The notes beneath the pieces were generated by a model. The model was not told where the DNA came from, ran no database searches, and saw only the letters and a list, made by a program, of their open reading frames with translations. A stretch of DNA of 39,792 nucleotides from Lachnospiraceae bacterium. GTDB taxonomy: Bacteria > Bacillota > Clostridia > Lachnospirales > Lachnospiraceae. The translations under genes and the position numbers were made by a program. Positions within the stretch are counted from its first letter, which is position 1, and the number at the start of each line of letters is the position of its first letter. Positions 2,851 through 39,679 of this stretch are shown here, piece by piece. The stretch covers positions 1-39,792 of the forward strand of contig JAHAYJ010000044.1 in assembly GCA_018384375.1 (NCBI GenBank), written 5' to 3'.

Positions 2851-3825
2851 CTAATTCTGCATCCGAATCTGCTGTCCGGTGATCAGCGGATAAGTCACTA
2901 CACTGTCGCCATCCAGATTCTCTCTATGCATGTCCACGCCGGTAATCTGACTGTTTTCATAGGTAGTATAATAATAAATCCCTTTATCGGTATTACAGCA
3001 GGAGCTGTAAATGGTAATCTCATATTTCCCCTCTCCCATATGCACCAGTCCCCGCTGCTGCTCCACAGAAGTCAGTATATGGAAAAACTGGCTGACACTC
3101 TCGGATTCCGAATCTCCGGAAAGAGAATTCATTTTGGTAAAGGCAACCTTCACAAAGCGCGACTGTGAGGATAGATCCCCGGGCAGTCCCATTGCCCCCA
3201 TACCGCGGCTGTAGGTTTTAAGCTCCAGCCCCTTAGCAAAAAGATTTTCCGGATTGTCGGTAGACAGATTCCGATAATTACTCAGGTTAAACATCTGCAT
3301 ATCAAAAGGCGGATTGTTCGTCAATACCTGAACCGGGTTCTCATAGACCTTCAGTCCTTCCTGAACTGCCTCAACGGTGATGGAGCCTTCCCGGTCTGAG
3401 ATCATCCAGTGAAGCGGAGAGAGCGGAAGTTCCTCGCTAAACGGAATATTCACCAAATTAATTTTTTCAAGAAGTGCCTTTGTCTCCTTCAAATCTGCAC
3501 ATTGTCCCAATATCCACGGAATAAATTCAAAAGGTGTCACATTGTCCTTGCCTTCCGCCTCCGGCTGAAATACCGCATTTCCTGCAAAAAGCAGTCCCGC
3601 CATGCTGAGCCCTTTTTCGTTGGTTGCATCATAATAAAGAGGATAACCTCCCACAACCGTTGCCATGCCGATCATAGCATAGTGGCTCTCCAAATCTTTT
3701 ACTTTTCGAAAGGAAAAAGGATAATTTCTTGGAGTGATCGCAATTTTTTCTCCATAAGAAATATCGAAATCCAAGTTGCGTCCGAAATAATGATCCTTCG
3801 TCTTATAGACCGCTGCTGTACACAT
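2851..3825 (-). CDS. bsh: Choloylglycine hydrolase family protein (bile salt hydrolase type)
   Basis: Ntn-hydrolase of 324 residues, the usual size for bile salt hydrolases, with no signal peptide (cytoplasmic). The nucleophile Cys2 would be exposed after Met removal (MCTAAVY). R16 and D19 in GRNLDF, the VLTNNP Asn and the Arg in SSQSRF are present, and the C-terminal half (GIYYYTTYENSQI, DMHRENLDGD) closely resembles the Clostridium perfringens enzyme. Oddity: the Asn that follows AGL in bile salt hydrolases (N82 in C. perfringens; Tyr in penicillin V acylases) is Leu78 here (AGLLFAGN). The selectivity loop reads YSRGMG (residues 205-210), the S-R-X type. The ribosome site AGGAGGG is 6 nt from the ATG. 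It starts 34 nt after the HerA-type gene and may be co-transcribed with it. Acyl-amide hydrolysis is likely; bile salt specificity is less certain. Confidence 0.85.
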   Translation of the reverse strand: MCTAAVYKTKDHYFGRNLDFDISYGEKIAITPRNYPFSFRKVKDLESHYAMIGMATVVGGYPLYYDATNEKGLSMAGLLFAGNAVFQPEAEGKDNVTPFEFIPWILGQCADLKETKALLEKINLVNIPFSEELPLSPLHWMISDREGSITVEAVQEGLKVYENPVQVLTNNPPFDMQMFNLSNYRNLSTDNPENLFAKGLELKTYSRGMGAMGLPGDLSSQSRFVKVAFTKMNSLSGDSESESVSQFFHILTSVEQQRGLVHMGEGKYEITIYSSCCNTDKGIYYYTTYENSQITGVDMHRENLDGDSVVTYPLITGQQIRMQN

Positions 3826-3859
3826 GTAAGTCCCTCCTGTCTTATTCCACCTTTATCAT

Positions 3860-5536
3860 TTACTTCTTAAATAATGTACTCAGAATTCCTCTTCCCAGCG
3901 AAGCTCCCACATTGCCACCCAGCTTCTTACCAAAGCTGCCGCCGATGGATTTGCCGAGCTGATTGCCAAGCTCCCTTCCGATCGTACCTCCTGCAGAGCT
4001 TGCCACACTTCTGGCTGCACTCTTAATCTGCTTATCTCTGGCAGCAAGCTTCTTTTCTTCAGCCTTTTTAGCCGCTTCCTCTTCCTTCATGCGCTGCTTT
4101 TCCAAGGCTGCCGCCTCCTTCTGACGAAGCTTTTCCTGCGCTGCTTCTTCCTTCAGGCGTAGCTTTTCTGCCTCCGCCTCTTCCTTCAAGCGCTGCTTTT
4201 CTGCTTCTGCAGCCTCTGCTGCCTTCCTCTCTTCCTCATCCTCAGCCACAACTCTCTTTTCCAAGATCTCGTAAGCGGATTCCCGGTCAATGTACTGTGT
4301 ATACTTTGTATAAAGCAGATGATCTGTGATCTGTGCTTTTCTCACTTCATCCTCCAGTGCCCCCATCTGGCTCTGAGGCGGAAGAATGCTGCACTTCTTC
4401 ACCACAGTGGGAATACCCTCTTCATCGAGCACGGAAATCAGTGCTTCTCCGATTCCCAACTGTGTCAGCGTTTCAAAGGTATCAAATTCCGGATTTTCGC
4501 GGAAGGACTGTGCTGCTGCCTTTGCCGCCTTCTGCTCCGACGGCGTATAGGCATGAAGCGCATGTTGAATCTTATTTCCCAGCTGCCCCAGTACGCCATC
4601 CGGAATATCTCTGGGATTCTGTGTAATAAAGTAAATACCCACACCCTTAGAACGGATCAGCTTCACCACCTGCTCGATCTTATCCAACAATGTCTTTGAA
4701 GCAGAATCAAAAAGAAGATGCGCCTCATCAAAGAAAAAGACCATCTTGGGCTTTTCCCGGTCTCCAGCCTCCGGCAATACCTCAAACAGTTCAGACAGCA
4801 TCCAAAGCAGGAAGGTGGAGTACATCGTCGGACTGTTGATCAGCTTCTGGCAATCCAGTACCTGAATGACACCCTTTCCGTTACAGTCTGTACACATCCA
4901 GTCAGAAATATTCAGCGCCGGCTCCGCAAAGAAGGTTTCTCCTCCCTCAGCCTCCAATGCGATCAGTGCACGAATAATTGCTCCCAGACTCTGCTTGGAC
5001 ATATTTCCATACTGCTGTGCGTAATCCTTCGCATTTTCACTGATATATTGAAGCAGGGAGCGCAGATCTTTGGTATCAAGAAGTAGCAGCCCCTCATCAT
5101 CCGCTATCTTAAAAATAATGGTAAGAATATCTGTCTGAACCTCATTCAAGCCCATGATCCTGCTAAGAAGTAGCGGGCCCATTTCAGAGATCGTGGTGCG
5201 AAGGGGCAGGCCCTTTTCCCCGTATACATCCCAATAAGTGGTAGGATAAGAGCGGAACTGAAATCCCTCTTCCGAAAGTCCCATGCCATCGATACGCTTT
5301 TGCAGACTTTCACTTACCACACCCGGTTTACACATGCCGGCCAGATCTCCCTTTACATCCGCTAAAAACACCGGCACGCCACAGTCACTGAAGGACTCTG
5401 CAAGTACCTTAAGGGTAATGGTTTTTCCGGTTCCCGTTGCACCTGCGATCATTCCGTGACGGTTTGCCATCTTCGGATATATGTATACCTTCTCATCTCC
5501 TGATTTTCCAATCCAGATTTTGTTGTCCTGAAACAT
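3860..5536 (-). CDS. HerA-like ATPase, DUF853 family (YjgR type)
   Basis: P-loop ATPase of 558 residues. Walker A is GATGTGKT (residues 32-39) and Walker B is MVFFFDEAHLLF; the motif YFITQNPRDIPDGVLGQLG is typical of HerA/FtsK-type translocases of the DUF853 branch. After ~400 the chain becomes a long charged Glu/Lys/Ala coiled coil with a repeated AEKxRLKEEA pattern, ending in a Gly-rich tail (GRELGNQLGKSIGG). The start at 5536 (MFQDNK) has GGGGAGG about 10 nt upstream; the open frame continues further upstream without another ribosome site. Cellular role unknown; DNA translocation is inferred from family. Confidence 0.85.
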   Translation of the reverse strand: MFQDNKIWIGKSGDEKVYIYPKMANRHGMIAGATGTGKTITLKVLAESFSDCGVPVFLADVKGDLAGMCKPGVVSESLQKRIDGMGLSEEGFQFRSYPTTYWDVYGEKGLPLRTTISEMGPLLLSRIMGLNEVQTDILTIIFKIADDEGLLLLDTKDLRSLLQYISENAKDYAQQYGNMSKQSLGAIIRALIALEAEGGETFFAEPALNISDWMCTDCNGKGVIQVLDCQKLINSPTMYSTFLLWMLSELFEVLPEAGDREKPKMVFFFDEAHLLFDSASKTLLDKIEQVVKLIRSKGVGIYFITQNPRDIPDGVLGQLGNKIQHALHAYTPSEQKAAKAAAQSFRENPEFDTFETLTQLGIGEALISVLDEEGIPTVVKKCSILPPQSQMGALEDEVRKAQITDHLLYTKYTQYIDRESAYEILEKRVVAEDEEERKAAEAAEAEKQRLKEEAEAEKLRLKEEAAQEKLRQKEAAALEKQRMKEEEAAKKAEEKKLAARDKQIKSAARSVASSAGGTIGRELGNQLGKSIGGSFGKKLGGNVGASLGRGILSTLFKK

Positions 5537-5629
5537 AAGCAGAATTCCTCCCCTGAAACAATAGATGATTTCGTAGATAACTATAATTAATGTATCACGC
5601 AAAGCCCTTTTTCGCAACCGCAATACCAC

Positions 5630-5657
5630 TTGACTTTCTTTTCTTTTCCAGTATAAT
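5630..5657 (+). promoter_or_regulatory. Promoter of queT
   Basis: -35 TTGACT (5630-5635), 16-bp spacer, -10 TATAAT (5652-5657). It predicts a leader of about 110 nt containing the candidate riboswitch. Confidence 0.75.
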
Positions 5658-34726: not shown

Positions 34727-34918
34727 CTATAAAGCCTCAATTTTAGCCATCAGATCGTTAATATTCATTCCGTGAACCATTGCTGCCTCCTCAAGGCTCT
34801 CTGCCTGAGCAGAAGGGCAACCCAGGCAATGCATGCCTGCTTCCATCAGAATAGGGGCAACATCCGGATTGGTTCTTAAGATTTCGCCAATTGTCATTTC
34901 CTTGGTAATCTGTGCCAT
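34727..34918 (-). CDS. DUF1858 small cysteine protein
   Basis: 63 residues. DUF1858 pattern: helical N-terminus ([20 protein letters not shown]) then [19 protein letters not shown] with a C-x-x-C pair. These proteins occur alone or fused to redox domains and are often labelled disulfide oxidoreductase-like; a thiol or metal function is plausible but not shown. Ribosome site AAGGAGG 8 nt from the ATG. Divergent from the pyruvate formate-lyase locus, sharing a 247-nt intergenic region. Confidence 0.85.
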
Positions 34919-35062: not shown

Positions 35063-35092
35063 TTGACTGTCAATCACTTTCTAACATATAAT
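35063..35092 (+). promoter_or_regulatory. Promoter of the split pyruvate formate-lyase operon
   Basis: -35 TTGACT (35063-35068), 18-bp spacer, -10 TATAAT (35087-35092). The leader carries a 6-bp hairpin GCATAG/CTATGC (35108-35122) and a strong AGGAGG (35152-35157). No clear operator for an anaerobic regulator was found. Confidence 0.7.
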
Positions 35093-35165: not shown

Positions 35166-37205
35166 ATGAAACCAGAATGGAAAGATTTTGTAGGCGGCAA
35201 GTGGGAGAACGAAGTTAATGTACGTGACTTCATTCAGAAAAACTATCATCCTTATGATGGGGATGAATCCTTCTTAGCAGAACCTACCCAGGACACAAAA
35301 GACTTATGGCAGATGGTACTTGATCTGCAGAAGAAGGAACGTGAAGCAGGCGGCGTTCTTGATATGGATACCAAGGTTGTATCTACAATCACTTCACACG
35401 CTCCCGGATATCTTGACAAGTCCAAGGAAAAGATTGTCGGATTCCAGACAGATAAGCCCTTCAAGCGTTCTCTGCAGCCTTATGGCGGTATCAGAATGGC
35501 AGAAAAGGCTTGCGCTGACAACGGTTATGAAGTAGATCCTGAAATCAGCGAGTTCTTCTCAACTCACAGAAAGACTCACAATGCAGGATGTTTTGATGCT
35601 TACAATCAGGAAATGAGAGCTTGTCGTTCCGCACACATCATCACAGGACTTCCGGATGCATACGGACGTGGACGTATCATCGGCGATTACAGACGTGTTG
35701 CTCTGTACGGTATCGACTTCCTGATCGAGGACAAGCAGGCACAGAAGGATTCCACCGGACGTGTTATGACTGATGATGTTATCCGTCTTCGTGAAGAGCT
35801 TTCCGAGCAGATGGTTGCTCTGAAGATGATGAAGGAAATGGCTGCTTCTTACGGCTGTGATATTTCCAAACCTGCTACTAACGTTAAGGAAGCTATCCAG
35901 GCTACTTACTTCGGATACTTATGTGCAGTTAAGGAACAGAACGGTGCTGCTATGTCTCTTGGACGTACCTCTACCTTCCTTGATTGTTATGCTGAGAGAG
36001 ACCTTGCTAACGGTACTTTCACAGAAGAAGAAATTCAGGAATTTGTTGATCATTTCATCATGAAGCTGCGTTGCATCAAATTCGCTCGTACTCCTGAATA
36101 TAACCAGATCTTCGCAGGTGACCCTGTATGGGTAACAGAGTCCTTAGGTGGTGTCGGCGTTGACGGACGTCATCTTGTAACAAAGATGAGCTTCCGTTAT
36201 ATGCATACATTAACCAACTTAGGCCCCAGCCCTGAACCCAACTTAACAGTTCTTTGGTCCACAAGACTTCCTGAGAACTGGAAGAAATACTGTGCTAAGA
36301 TGTCTATCCAGACCTCTTCTATCCAGTACGAAAACGACGACCTGATGAGAGTAACACATGGTGATGACTACGGTATTGCTTGTTGTGTATCTTCCATGGT
36401 TATCGGTAAGGAAATGCAGTTCTTCGGCGCAAGAGCAAACGTTGCCAAGTGCTTACTGTACGCATTAAACGGCGGTGTTGATGAAGTTACCAAGAAGCAG
36501 GTTGGACCTAAGTATCGTCCTGTAACCGGTGATGTTCTTGATTATGATGATGTTATGGATAAGTTTATCGATATGCTGGAGTGGCAGGCAGATGTATATG
36601 TAAATACACTGAACATCATCCACTATATGCATGACAAATACTGCTATGAGAGAGCAGAAATGGCTCTCCATGACAGAGATGTTAAGAGATACTTCGCAAC
36701 AGGTGTTGCAGGTCTTTCCATCGTAGCTGACTCCTTATCAGCAATCAAGTATGCTAAGGTTGAAGTAATCAGAGATGAGGACGGCATCATCGTTGACTTC
36801 AAGACAACAGGTGACTTCCCTAAATACGGTAATGATGATGACCGTGTTGACAGCATTGCTCAAGAAATTGTACACAAGTTCATGACAGCAATCAGAAGAC
36901 ATCATACCTACAGAAATGGTGTTCCTACCACCTCCATTCTTACCATTACCTCTAACGTAACTTATGGTAAGGCAACAGGTAACACACCTGACGGACGTAA
37001 GAAAGGCCAGCCTTTCGCTCCCGGTGCTAACCCGATGCACGGACGTGATACTCATGGTGCAGTAGCATCTCTTGCTTCTGTTTCCAAGCTTCCTTTTAAG
37101 GATGCACAGGATGGTATTTCTAATACCTTCACAATCATCCCCGGAGCTCTCGGAAAAGAGGATCAGGTATTTGCAGGAGATATCGAAATCGACTTAAACA
37201 AATAA
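35166..37205 (+). CDS. pflB: Pyruvate formate-lyase core subunit lacking the glycyl radical domain
   Basis: 679 residues, a bona fide PFL by sequence over its whole length ([73 protein letters not shown]). The active-site pair is C406-C407 in [20 protein letters not shown], equivalent to C418-C419 of Escherichia coli. The chain ends at [16 protein letters not shown], where one-piece PFL continues directly into the glycyl radical domain; no RVSGYAV-type loop remains. It cannot carry the essential radical itself and must use the 80-residue protein encoded 262 nt downstream. Reaction: pyruvate + CoA to acetyl-CoA + formate. Codon use looks biased as in a highly expressed gene. No activating enzyme gene is in the window. 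Confidence 0.95.
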
Positions 37206-37240
37206 TTAAACGATAATCCATTTTCAGGAGGTACAATGCA

Positions 37241-37444
37241 ATGGACGATAAAAAGATGATTGATGATCTTGTAAAAATGCTGGATTCCGGCATGGCTATG
37301 GGCGTTGGACATGTAAATGTGGACTACGACGAAGAGAGTAAGCAGTCAAAAAATGTTCAGACAATGGGTTGTACGGATTGTTCCAGAACACCTCTTGCCT
37401 GCAGTGTACCTACCCTGGAAGATGGTTTGGATGATTTTCATTGA
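37241..37444 (+). CDS. 67-residue cysteine protein related to the N-half of the glycyl radical domain
   Basis: Second gene of the split PFL locus, 35 nt after the core, with AGGAGG 9 nt from the ATG. Residues 7-27 (IDDLVKMLDSGMAMGVGHVN + V) align without gaps to residues 8-28 of the 80-residue radical-domain protein ([20 protein letters not shown] + V), sharing L-V, L-D, G, H and N-V positions. After Y29 the homology stops: instead of the glycine loop there is a polar linker and a tail GCTDCSRTPLAC with C44, C47 and C54 (C-x2-C-x6-C), then an acidic end. No known function. It could occupy the radical domain's docking site on the core, bind metal or sense oxygen or redox state. Not a pseudogene by appearance: good start, ribosome site, no damage. 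Confidence 0.85.
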   Translation: MDDKKMIDDLVKMLDSGMAMGVGHVNVDYDEESKQSKNVQTMGCTDCSRTPLACSVPTLEDGLDDFH

Positions 37445-37466
37445 TTAATTGAAGGAGGTAATTACC

Positions 37467-37709
37467 ATGGCAGCTAGTGCAGCACAGGTAAACAACTTAG
37501 TATCATTATTAGATGGTTACGCAGTTAAGGGCGGACATCATCTTAATGTAAACGTATTAAACAGAGATACCTTATTAGATGCTCAGAAGCATCCCGAGAA
37601 CTATCCTCAGCTTACAATCCGTGTTTCCGGATACGCTGTTAACTTCATCAAGTTAACACCCGAACAGCAGGCTGACGTTATTTCCCGTACTTTCCACGAG
37701 TCACTCTAA
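37467..37709 (+). CDS. Stand-alone glycyl radical domain subunit of pyruvate formate-lyase
   Basis: 80 residues, matching only the C-terminal end of PFL and of the GrcA/YfiD spare part: [60 protein letters not shown]. The radical-bearing residue is G55 in RVSGYAV. Together with the 679-residue core it makes 759 residues, the length of one-piece PFL. Unlike E. coli GrcA (127 residues, a repair part next to an intact PflB), it has no N-terminal extension and is the only radical domain here. Start at 37467 preceded by AAGGAGG (37452-37458); an in-frame TTG at 37449 overlaps that site and is rejected. 22 nt after the 67-residue gene. Confidence 0.93.
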
Positions 37710-37721
37710 TACGTTAGTATG

Positions 37722-37753
37722 AAAACACCCGCTTATTATGGCGGGTGTTTTAT
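37722..37753 (+). terminator. Terminator of the split pyruvate formate-lyase operon
   Basis: AAAACACCCGC (37722-37732) pairs with GCGGGTGTTTT (37741-37751) around an 8-nt loop and ends in a T-rich run. It lies 13 nt past the radical-domain gene and can also serve the convergent GGDEF gene. Confidence 0.92.
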
Positions 37754-37756
37754 TCT

Positions 37757-38524
37757 TTATTCTATTTTCATTAAATCCTCTCTTCGCATCTTATCCTTCT
37801 TCTTCTGCATATACATTCTTTTATCAGCTAATTGCATACATGACATGAGAGATAATTCATCTTCATCCGAAACACAGCACATTCCAAAGCTTGCACAAAA
37901 TGGATAGGGCTTGGGATTTTTCTCTTCTTCCTCCTTCATTGCCCGGTTAAATTGTTCTGTAAATTCCAGTTCCCGTTCTCGGTCATCCGAATATAGCAGA
38001 ATAGAGAACTCATCCCCGCCTACTCTTGCACATATTTCTTCTCCCCCAACCAATGTCTCTAAAATTCCTGCCAGTCTGCAAAGAGCCGCATCGCCCTCTG
38101 AATGCCCGAAATGATCATTGATATACTTTAAGCCATTCATGTCTATGCTGACAATACTTAAAAATTTGTTTTCTTCTCCATACCTTTCATAAAGACTTCG
38201 AAGATGCTTTTCAAAGCCTCTCCGATTATAAATACCTGTCAAGGCGTCCTTATGATACAGAATTCTGATATTTTCCAAATCAGCTATCTGCTTATGTACT
38301 TCTGCTTCTTCGATCGCGTTTGCAAGACCCATCAGATATGCCTGCACATAGCTGCCCGGCCAGTCCTCACCTTCAAAAACCATAGCCATATAACCATAGC
38401 ATTTATTTTTGTAGTGAACCGGAAAGACCAGATAAGCCTGGGGCATTTCCTTATCCAGTATCTCCTGGGGCAAAATACTGGTTCTGGCAAACCTTACATC
38501 ATATTCTTCTCTCTTCTGATCCTT
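37757..38524 (-). CDS. GGDEF (diguanylate cyclase) half of a frameshifted sensor protein
   Basis: About 255 codons in the -1 frame relative to the LacI-type ORF. First a GAF-like piece (MPQAYLVFPVHYKNKCYGYM; AYLMGLANAIEEAEVHKQIA), then a complete GGDEF domain: DALTGIYNRRGFEKHL, SIDMNGLKYINDHFGHSEGD, the active site ARVGGDEFSIL, and SFGMCCVSDEDELSLMSCMQ. Predicted to make cyclic di-GMP. No ATG or ribosome site precedes it (the first possible start is TTG at 38473). The frame runs without a stop up to the T7 tract at 38525-38531, where one added base, or a -1 shift, fuses it to the upstream sensor. It is therefore best read as the 3' half of one gene. Confidence 0.8.
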   Translation of the reverse strand, partial: KDQKREEYDVRFARTSILPQEILDKEMPQAYLVFPVHYKNKCYGYMAMVFEGEDWPGSYVQAYLMGLANAIEEAEVHKQIADLENIRILYHKDALTGIYNRRGFEKHLRSLYERYGEENKFLSIVSIDMNGLKYINDHFGHSEGDAALCRLAGILETLVGGEEICARVGGDEFSILLYSDDRERELEFTEQFNRAMKEEEEKNPKPYPFCASFGMCCVSDEDELSLMSCMQLADKRMYMQKKKDKMRREDLMKIE

Positions 38525-39651
38525 AAAAAAATTCTTTTCAGTATCATTTCATCGGAATAAAATTCATCTCTTTCCTTTACTTCAGAACTTTTTTCTTCTT
38601 CGCTGCACATACATAAATATGCCTTACTGCATCTGACGTTCTGCAAATATCTTTCTGCGACTCTTAAATATTCATCTTCCTCAAAAGCATCCTGATATTC
38701 TGTTGTTAAGAGTACCAATTGCTTTGTATCATCCTCCTGAACAAAAACCTTATGGAGAAGTGATGACCAGTCATCCACTATCTCCTGTTTTCCACAGCCA
38801 CAGCTCCTGCGCAGTTGGATTTCCGGCTTCAGCCATTCAACACGCTTTTGCTCAACACCCTTTCTTACTCTATCGATAATCTCCACTGCCTTCTCGCCCA
38901 TCGCCGCAAACGGAGCTTTAATGCTTGTAATTGATGGATGATATCTACGAACCTCCAAAATATCATCATAGCCGGATACACAGATATCTTCGGGAATACG
39001 TATGCCTCTCTTTTTCAACTCATCGCAGATGGAAAGCGCCATATAGTCATTTGAGCAGATAATCGCCTGCGGATAAGTATCTCTGCCTTCCAAAAACCAA
39101 TCTACAGCTTCCTTGCCTTTTGACCTCCAATAATCCCCCTCAAAGACCATGTGATCCGTCACAGGAATTCCCTCTTCCTCCATTACGGTCAGAAACCCTT
39201 TATGCCTTACCAGCGCATCTTCGCTTCTCATATCACCTGTCATAAAGCAAATATCGCGGAAACCATGATCTTTGATAAAATGTCTTGTGATATCAGCAAT
39301 TGCCTCACCATCTTCCACAAGCACATTATAAAAACCCTCTTTAGGGTTTCGAATATAAACAACCGGACATTCCGCCTGCTGCCTCAGAAGAATAAACAAT
39401 TCATTCTCCATCCCGTCAATATCAAAAGTATCCTCACCTACAATAATTCCGTCAAGCCTGGAAATATCCGGTATCCTGATAGAGCTTTTTTCGCCTTCTG
39501 CATAAAGCACATTATTTCCATAAGCCCCAAAATTGCAGAATACAAAAACATCATAATTCAGTTCTTTTGTCTTCCTGAATATTGCCTTCAGAATGACCTC
39601 CTGATACTCTGACGTAACCTCCCCTATAAAAATACCTATTTTCTGTCTCAT
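38494..39651 (-). CDS. LacI/PBP1-type sensor half of a frameshifted sensor-GGDEF protein
   Basis: 385 residues. There is no helix-turn-helix: the chain begins directly with a periplasmic-binding-like sugar-sensor fold (KIGIFIGEVTSEYQEVILKA; LDGIIVGEDTFDI; HGFRDICFMTGDMRSEDALV; AIICSNDYMALSICDELKKR; DICVSGYDDILEVRRYHPSI) with no signal peptide, so it is cytoplasmic. A short GAF-like region follows (KQLVLLTTEYQDAFEEDEYL). The frame ends nine codons after the sequence T TTT TTA (38530-38524); the continuation in the -1 frame is the GGDEF ORF. This sensor plus GGDEF order is a known architecture of one-piece proteins (about 631 residues here). Start at 39651 behind GAGGAAAG; an ATG at 39678 has no site. 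Confidence 0.8.
   Translation of the reverse strand: MRQKIGIFIGEVTSEYQEVILKAIFRKTKELNYDVFVFCNFGAYGNNVLYAEGEKSSIRIPDISRLDGIIVGEDTFDIDGMENELFILLRQQAECPVVYIRNPKEGFYNVLVEDGEAIADITRHFIKDHGFRDICFMTGDMRSEDALVRHKGFLTVMEEEGIPVTDHMVFEGDYWRSKGKEAVDWFLEGRDTYPQAIICSNDYMALSICDELKKRGIRIPEDICVSGYDDILEVRRYHPSITSIKAPFAAMGEKAVEIIDRVRKGVEQKRVEWLKPEIQLRRSCGCGKQEIVDDWSSLLHKVFVQEDDTKQLVLLTTEYQDAFEEDEYLRVAERYLQNVRCSKAYLCMCSEEEKSSEVKERDEFYSDEMILKRIFLRIRREKNMM
38524..38531 (-). other. T7 tract / U UUU UUA slippery heptamer at the frameshift
   Basis: In the sensor frame the codons are ATT TTT TTA, so bases 38530-38524 form T TTT TTA in the exact register of a -1 slippery site. The seven-T run is also a candidate for replication or transcriptional slippage or a sequencing indel. 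No clear downstream hairpin or upstream Shine-Dalgarno stimulator was seen. Confidence 0.7.
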
Positions 39652-39679
39652 CCGACTTTCCTCATCCATTAAATTCAAG

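Follow-up and report, generated by a model that had tools for sequence, protein, structure and literature searches.

Organization of the locus

The window is the whole 39,792-nucleotide stretch analyzed here, contig C72 of a draft Lachnospiraceae genome (3.11 Mb, 125 contigs, 96% complete). Three consecutive genes on its plus strand are referred to as CORE, MID and RAD. CORE (35166..37205, +) encodes a pyruvate formate-lyase (PFL) of 679 amino acids without a glycyl radical domain; its catalytic cysteine pair, C406-C407, lies at 36381..36386 (+). MID (37241..37444, +) encodes an accessory protein of 67 amino acids, and RAD (37467..37709, +) a glycyl radical protein of 80 amino acids with the NCBI name GrcA3. 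The codon of the expected radical glycine of RAD, G55 in the motif RVSGYAV, is at 37629..37631 (+).

AGGAGG ribosome sites precede both MID (37226..37231, +) and RAD (37453..37458, +). A promoter-like site, TTGACT-18-TATAAT (35063..35092, +; 11 of 12 consensus matches, identified by consensus only), is located 5' of CORE, and a sequence scan found an intrinsic-terminator-like stem of 12 pairs 3' of RAD (37722..37751, +). The region has 5 promoter-like sites, fewer than the mean of 7.4 in shuffled sequences, and 4 terminator-like sites vs. 2.0. We infer that CORE, MID and RAD form a tricistronic operon, with a single transcript bracketed by the predicted promoter and terminator. Two minus-strand genes follow RAD (37757-39678, -; GGDEF-like and LacI-like by eye), and a small Cys-containing protein, which we take to be DUF1858-like, is encoded divergently from the operon (34727-34918, -).

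CORE and RAD as the two parts of PFL

CORE exceeds the TIGR01255 equivalog cut-off by itself (1106.4 vs. 994.2 bits; PF02901, 728.9 bits) and covers profile positions 2-665 of 744. The match stops there, the glycyl radical domain being absent from CORE's own chain and encoded separately; RAD fits positions 665-744. The same division is seen against E. coli PFL (1h16, 759 residues), with CORE residues 4-669 aligned to 10-681 and RAD residues 8-79 aligned to 682-758. An earlier note, made from the sequence alone, had described a 679-residue core with C406-C407 and no radical domain, together with an independent 80-residue protein with G55 in RVSGYAV. Both descriptions hold, and RAD is the stretch of E. 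coli PFL that CORE is missing. The note's sum of 679 and 80 residues does give 759, as in one-piece PFL, but the agreement is partly coincidence because about 10 residues of the CORE tail are unmatched to E. coli PFL.

RAD is barely over the cut-off of the GrcA3 model NF038360 (158.4 vs. 158 bits), and in the whole-genome search the same gene scored 157.3 bits, just below it; all 40 RADs scanned matched this model at E 1e-10 or better. Median omega against named relatives was 0.046 for CORE (71 of 75 pairs with finite Ks), 0.064 for RAD (70/73) and 0.109 for MID (38/73). All three genes are under purifying selection, consistent with the note's argument against decay. AlphaFold2 predictions for read-through chains of a relative had mean pLDDT values of 45.4 (core-MID) and 47.6 (core-MID-RAD), too low for the models to speak for or against docking.

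Distribution of split PFL

Most of the 80 nearest named relatives carry the title Lachnospiraceae and some Acetatifactor; many are metagenome assemblies. The locus continues past the core in 74 of the 80; MID is present in all 74 (one with a 24-residue insert) and RAD in 73, the exception being a contig end. For the family as a whole, we sampled 150 genomes, one per genus code, of which 112 were over the PFL cut-off: 56 have a split PFL, 59 a one-piece PFL and 3 both, leaving 53 that are split only. Within these 56, the G099 and G110 matches extend beyond stops, and the cut-off is reached by G061 and G042 only when neighbouring matches are counted in. MID and RAD are also present in two more genomes, G129 and G060, whose cores are truncated by contig ends.

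Our set of split loci comprises 58, i.e., 57 fetched loci and the window. In all 58, RAD is found 3' of the core and in the same orientation. MID occurs in 35 and is absent from 23, and in the stretches fetched pflA shares the core's strand in 55 of 58 (here the 57 plus L102; the window is not included). In the survey of Lachnospiraceae for the three-gene order that the note had proposed, the three genes occur together in 73 of the 74 named relatives that continue past the core and in 35 of the 58 family loci. SGYAV is kept in 58/58 RADs, and the Cys-pair pattern in all 56 split cores long enough for testing.

In a sample of the class, 12 of 122 genomes over the cut-off are split; they belong to seven family codes, and three of the 12 are Lachnospiraceae. 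As judged by these profile matches, split PFL occurs in at least seven families of the class. Outside the Lachnospiraceae it is a minority form (9 of the 12 split genomes, among the 122 over the cut-off, in six other families). Ten of the 12 class loci were fetched, with RAD in 10, pflA in 8 and MID in 4 (three of these outside Lachnospiraceae). The split core of L211 (G736), from another family, is broken by a TAA in its own frame and followed by RAD and pflA frames; it was excluded from the core tree. In a phylum sample of 398 genomes, GrcA3 was matched at E 1e-40 or better in nine; only two of these matches are stand-alone frames, both in Lachnospiraceae, and the other seven are radical domains of one-piece enzymes. 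The MID profile matched in 8/398, and in six of these it had picked up the radical domain of a long frame.

A different glycyl radical enzyme is likewise split from its radical protein in two genera (L206:3010-5526, -; L207:about 3040-5649, -). The best NCBIfam match of the L206 enzyme is a PFL2-3 subfamily (590.7 bits, below the cut-off of 678.2); its radical protein (82 amino acids) adjoins the enzyme gene on the same strand and has its own ribosome site.

MID and the cysteine tail

The earlier two-subunit account was right that CORE and RAD are separate subunits, but it missed MID, a third component that is itself related to the radical domain. For the MID family, Pfam, NCBIfam and PHROG gave no match of useful score (best NCBIfam hint, GrcA3 at E 0.091), and Pfam PF01228 matched three of 35 members (best E 0.01, weak alone). 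Aligning 35 MIDs with 40 of the 58 RADs by hhalign matched residues 2-34 (33 columns; 37244..37342, + in the window) with a probability of 95.5% (P 1.5e-8). On this alignment, the first half of MID is a Gly-less relative of RAD's first helix and strand. The Gly loop RVSGYAV has no counterpart, with no SGY in 35/35 MIDs.

Further along, MID carries the motif C44-x2-C47-x6-C54-x2-P57 (37370..37411, +). The window MID has three Cys, of which two are nearly invariant across the family; C47 and C54 are mostly kept, and ACxxP is found in 33/35, the two MIDs without the second Cys motif being those of L046 and L054. A [4Fe-4S] accessory subunit of the benzylsuccinate synthase (BSS) type has four cluster Cys; MID was rejected as such a subunit, its conserved Cys being too few. 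In 20 of the 23 split loci without MID, two close Cys are found in a tail at the end of the core itself. MID tail and core tails are homologous (probability 96.3%, P 2e-9, with 13 of 21 tails of at least 20 residues); the remaining eight tails, outside this alignment, have a shorter Cys motif of the DCACCEP kind, or adjacent Cys (L064).

A third component or a Cys tail is present in 55/58 split loci. Neither is strictly required, because L069 has neither (order core-pflA-RAD) and L084 has neither as far as its contig goes. MID can also come after RAD (L168, L209). From the exchange of MID and tail between loci, the Cys tail would seem to be the working part, and the radical-domain-like half a tether to CORE; the two MIDs without the second Cys motif speak against this. 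Searches of the PDB with MID gave three unrelated matches only (best E 0.2), and with the core tail no match; in plasmids no MID was found. A 68-amino acid relative of MID (26.4 bits) is encoded on another contig of the same genome, C124, right after an AICAR formyltransferase gene (L117:2344-2547, +). Within the genus, 33/36 genomes contain a match to it, five with a stop inside the matched frame, as against 0/24 other genomes of the order.

History of the split

A quick tree of 112 cores with SH-aLRT support united 71 split and five one-piece rows in one branch (support 100), with one split row, L216, outside. MID presence or absence requires 11 changes among the split rows, and the MID-less rows are all labelled tail, including L069, L084 and L216. 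A single clade of MID-bearing cores was rejected (AU test, p 5.6e-7). Re-fusion is a likely origin for the five one-piece PFLs inside the split branch, although a clade of split rows (without L216) that excludes them is not rejected (AU test, p 0.073). The one-piece PFL of L019 (G096) has a Cys-rich insert exactly at the site where the split forms are cut, and is possibly a re-fusion or an intermediate.

Proposed mechanism and the role of MID

We consider it likely that the three genes form one operon and encode a PFL functioning in separate parts, namely CORE and RAD with the accessory MID. CORE would hold the barrel, the substrate site and the Cys pair. PflA, encoded on another contig, would install the radical on G55 of RAD, and RAD would occupy the usual place of the radical domain on CORE, from where the radical would pass to the Cys pair. 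MID would bind CORE via its radical-domain-like helix and strand and present its Cys-bearing tail. RAD cleaved by oxygen could be replaced without making a new core of ~75 kDa, because it is a separate gene with a second, lone copy in the genome. From the one transcript to the complex, the radical on G55 and the replacement of RAD, these steps are what we infer for this locus.

Passages of Andorfer et al. 2021 (PMC8683613) report that an E. coli PFL core truncated after residue 695 equals the wild type in activity once it has been activated, and that YfiD restores cleaved PFL. In vitro, however, the truncated core binds YfiD poorly and its activation is 32-fold lower, for which reason residues 696-733 were proposed as a recognition element. 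The laboratory-made tPFL:YfiD pair in these passages resembles the present locus in combining a radical-domain-less core with a separate Gly protein, and differs in its poor binding and activation, a difficulty that natural systems may overcome by means of MID or the Cys tail. Poor binding of the truncated core implies that a natural split core would need extra binding features, and by analogy MID or the Cys tail may replace the recognition element absent from natural split cores. Recruiting or holding RAD, as residues 696-733 do for YfiD binding in E. coli PFL, would be the most likely task of MID, although with regard to its exact role this is a guess that we put forward tentatively. A passage of PMC12338860 adds that in E. 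coli GrcA passes its radical in trans to C419 of PflB. The earlier note had held that all known radical chemistry in the family has the Gly loop in one chain with the Cys pair, GrcA/YfiD being a repair part for an otherwise complete PFL; given the in-trans supply described for E. coli in these passages (PMC8683613, PMC12338860), that was too strong. Half-of-sites asymmetry, with RAD on one protomer and MID on the other, was set aside; PMC12338860, in the passage seen here, argues against half-site reactivity in E. coli.

A wider reading is possible though rather doubtful. The three-part PFL would be a standing design in Clostridia, in which MID, a copy of the radical domain that has no Gly, has become a docking subunit. 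It would sit in or beside the site on CORE where the radical domain belongs, carry a working Cys tail and cede that site to charged RAD. The Cys tail would have moved repeatedly between MID and the core C-terminus, and the radical cofactor would be exchangeable, with extra copies as spares.

That MID is instead an antagonist of CORE seems unlikely. MID would then be a plug in the radical-domain site, or its Cys would quench stray radicals, keeping CORE safe until charged RAD arrives. The mimicry of a radical domain without Gly loop in the first half of MID fits such a role, as do its conserved Cys and the shortened radical lifetime attributed, in a passage of PMC12590467, to BSS-beta, an accessory subunit of another glycyl radical enzyme. 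A removable plug could not be general, however, because in 20/23 MID-less loci the Cys-pair tail is part of the core itself. A PFL of separate parts, in which MID may assist RAD, is the reading preferred here.

Is the radical subunit obligatory?

A search of the genome with the Pfam PFL-like models found three places. One is CORE; the others, L001 and L003, are different glycyl radical enzymes, both with the radical domain in the same open frame and an activase-like gene adjoining. The split CORE is the single match over the TIGR01255 cut-off. Both searches found no one-piece PFL in this draft genome (96% complete, 125 contigs), and the PflA activase is encoded at the start of contig C119 (298.7 bits, cut-off 231.75). 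The search for an intact pflB and for pflA that the note had called for thus found only the latter, in keeping with its view that the radical subunit is obligatory. RAD should be obligatory in this genome because the draft holds no complete PFL that we could find. Within the genus, 29 of 37 genomes are over the PFL cut-off; 27 of these matches stop before the radical domain (one of them extends past two stops), two are truncated by contig ends, and no one-piece PFL is listed among the 37. MID is present in 33/37.

In the nearest relative, L118, pflA is immediately 3' of RAD, where the window has the minus-strand gene pair. The stretch after RAD in L120 resembles that of the window (73% identity), and in L119 pflA follows RAD by ~3 kb, behind a stretch unlike the window's. 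Insertions probably parted RAD from pflA in this lineage, a reading that spans a contig gap.

A second strong RAD is encoded on another contig in nine of the 56 split genomes. The one in G097 has pflA behind it at the edge of a contig, could belong to a second copy of the operon and was left out, giving eight genomes with a lone extra RAD, among them the one studied here. Its lone RAD (L116:2536-2778, +; contig C85) follows the gene of a Crp/Fnr-like regulator, with a gene for a FocA-like transporter nearby; the regulator matches Crp/Fnr models and the transporter FocA, all below cut-offs. A Crp/Fnr-like gene adjoins the lone RAD in four genomes including this one, and a spoIIIA-like cluster lies on its other side in three (both named by eye). 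The earlier suggestion that the radical piece could be exchanged accords with this second gene.

It is very improbable that RAD is a mere spare part of the GrcA/YfiD type while a complete PFL elsewhere does the work. The NCBI name of RAD, autonomous glycyl radical cofactor GrcA3, would suit that role; three of the 56 split genomes also have a one-piece PFL, and a draft in 125 contigs might hide one. Against it stand the genome and genus searches above, together with the 53 of 56 split family genomes that have no one-piece copy over the cut-off.

Decay, assembly error and recoding

A broken or mis-assembled one-piece gene, favored by nothing beyond the split itself, is scarcely credible: the same break recurs in the 74 named relatives reaching past the core and in the 57 loci fetched from other genomes, a separate gene often lies in between, ribosome sites are present and omega is far below 1 for CORE, MID and RAD, so that both pseudogene and the sequencing or assembly error contemplated by the note are rejected.

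Recoding, by stop readthrough or programmed frameshift, that fuses core and RAD into one chain is just as remote. CORE and RAD do share a frame in the window, by chance, with MID in a different one. Across the 58 loci, however, the RAD frame relative to the core is spread over all three frames (24/18/16), and RAD starts 0-1038 nt after the core stop, the far end being L069 with pflA between. RAD begins with ATG in 58/58, with five or more Shine-Dalgarno core bases in 52, and MID or pflA can stand between core and RAD. Frame spread, gap range and start signals rule recoding out. The smallest gap among the 58 is in L063 (G097), where RAD begins right at the core's stop codon.

Relation to known systems and significance

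The locus shares with one-piece PflB (E. coli, TIGR01255) a core that is over the cut-off alone, the Cys pair and the Gly loop; it differs in having the radical domain encoded by a gene of its own and in the addition of MID or a Cys tail. RAD belongs with GrcA3 by its narrow margin over NF038360. In contrast, GrcA/YfiD (TIGR04365) serves a complete but damaged PFL, none of which was found here, and YfiD matches RAD residues 19-80 only, RAD's first helix being missing from it. The small Cys-bearing subunits BSS-beta and BSS-gamma of benzylsuccinate synthase, as described in passages of PMC12590467, likewise serve a glycyl radical enzyme, but have [4Fe-4S] clusters and a HiPIP-like fold, whereas MID is a radical-domain relative with two nearly invariant Cys.

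The best solved relatives of CORE are the PDB entries 38lb and 38la ('Formate acetyltransferase'). With no match to RAD at E 0.01 in either chain, both seem to lack a radical domain; beyond the core, 38lb continues into a stretch containing two Cys. The two entries may represent split cores that occur in nature, or else constructs that were shortened; the E. coli entry 1qhm (624 residues) is also shorter than 759. In the open literature (titles, starts of abstracts and passages, with most subscription journals outside this scope) we found no description of a natural split PFL. The split is partly known already, given the NCBI name GrcA3 for RAD and the two PFL chains without radical domain in the PDB; the least known part is MID with the movable Cys tail.

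In the gut, PFL is one of the main steps by which sugars are fermented and formate is supplied. Half of the PFL-bearing genomes in the family sample encode the radical cofactor as a protein of its own, and the name given to the core alone, formate C-acetyltransferase, conceals the split. Truncated E. coli constructs have been used so far; the split enzyme of the Lachnospiraceae would offer a natural system in which to follow a glycyl radical from its installation through its transfer to its replacement after oxygen damage.
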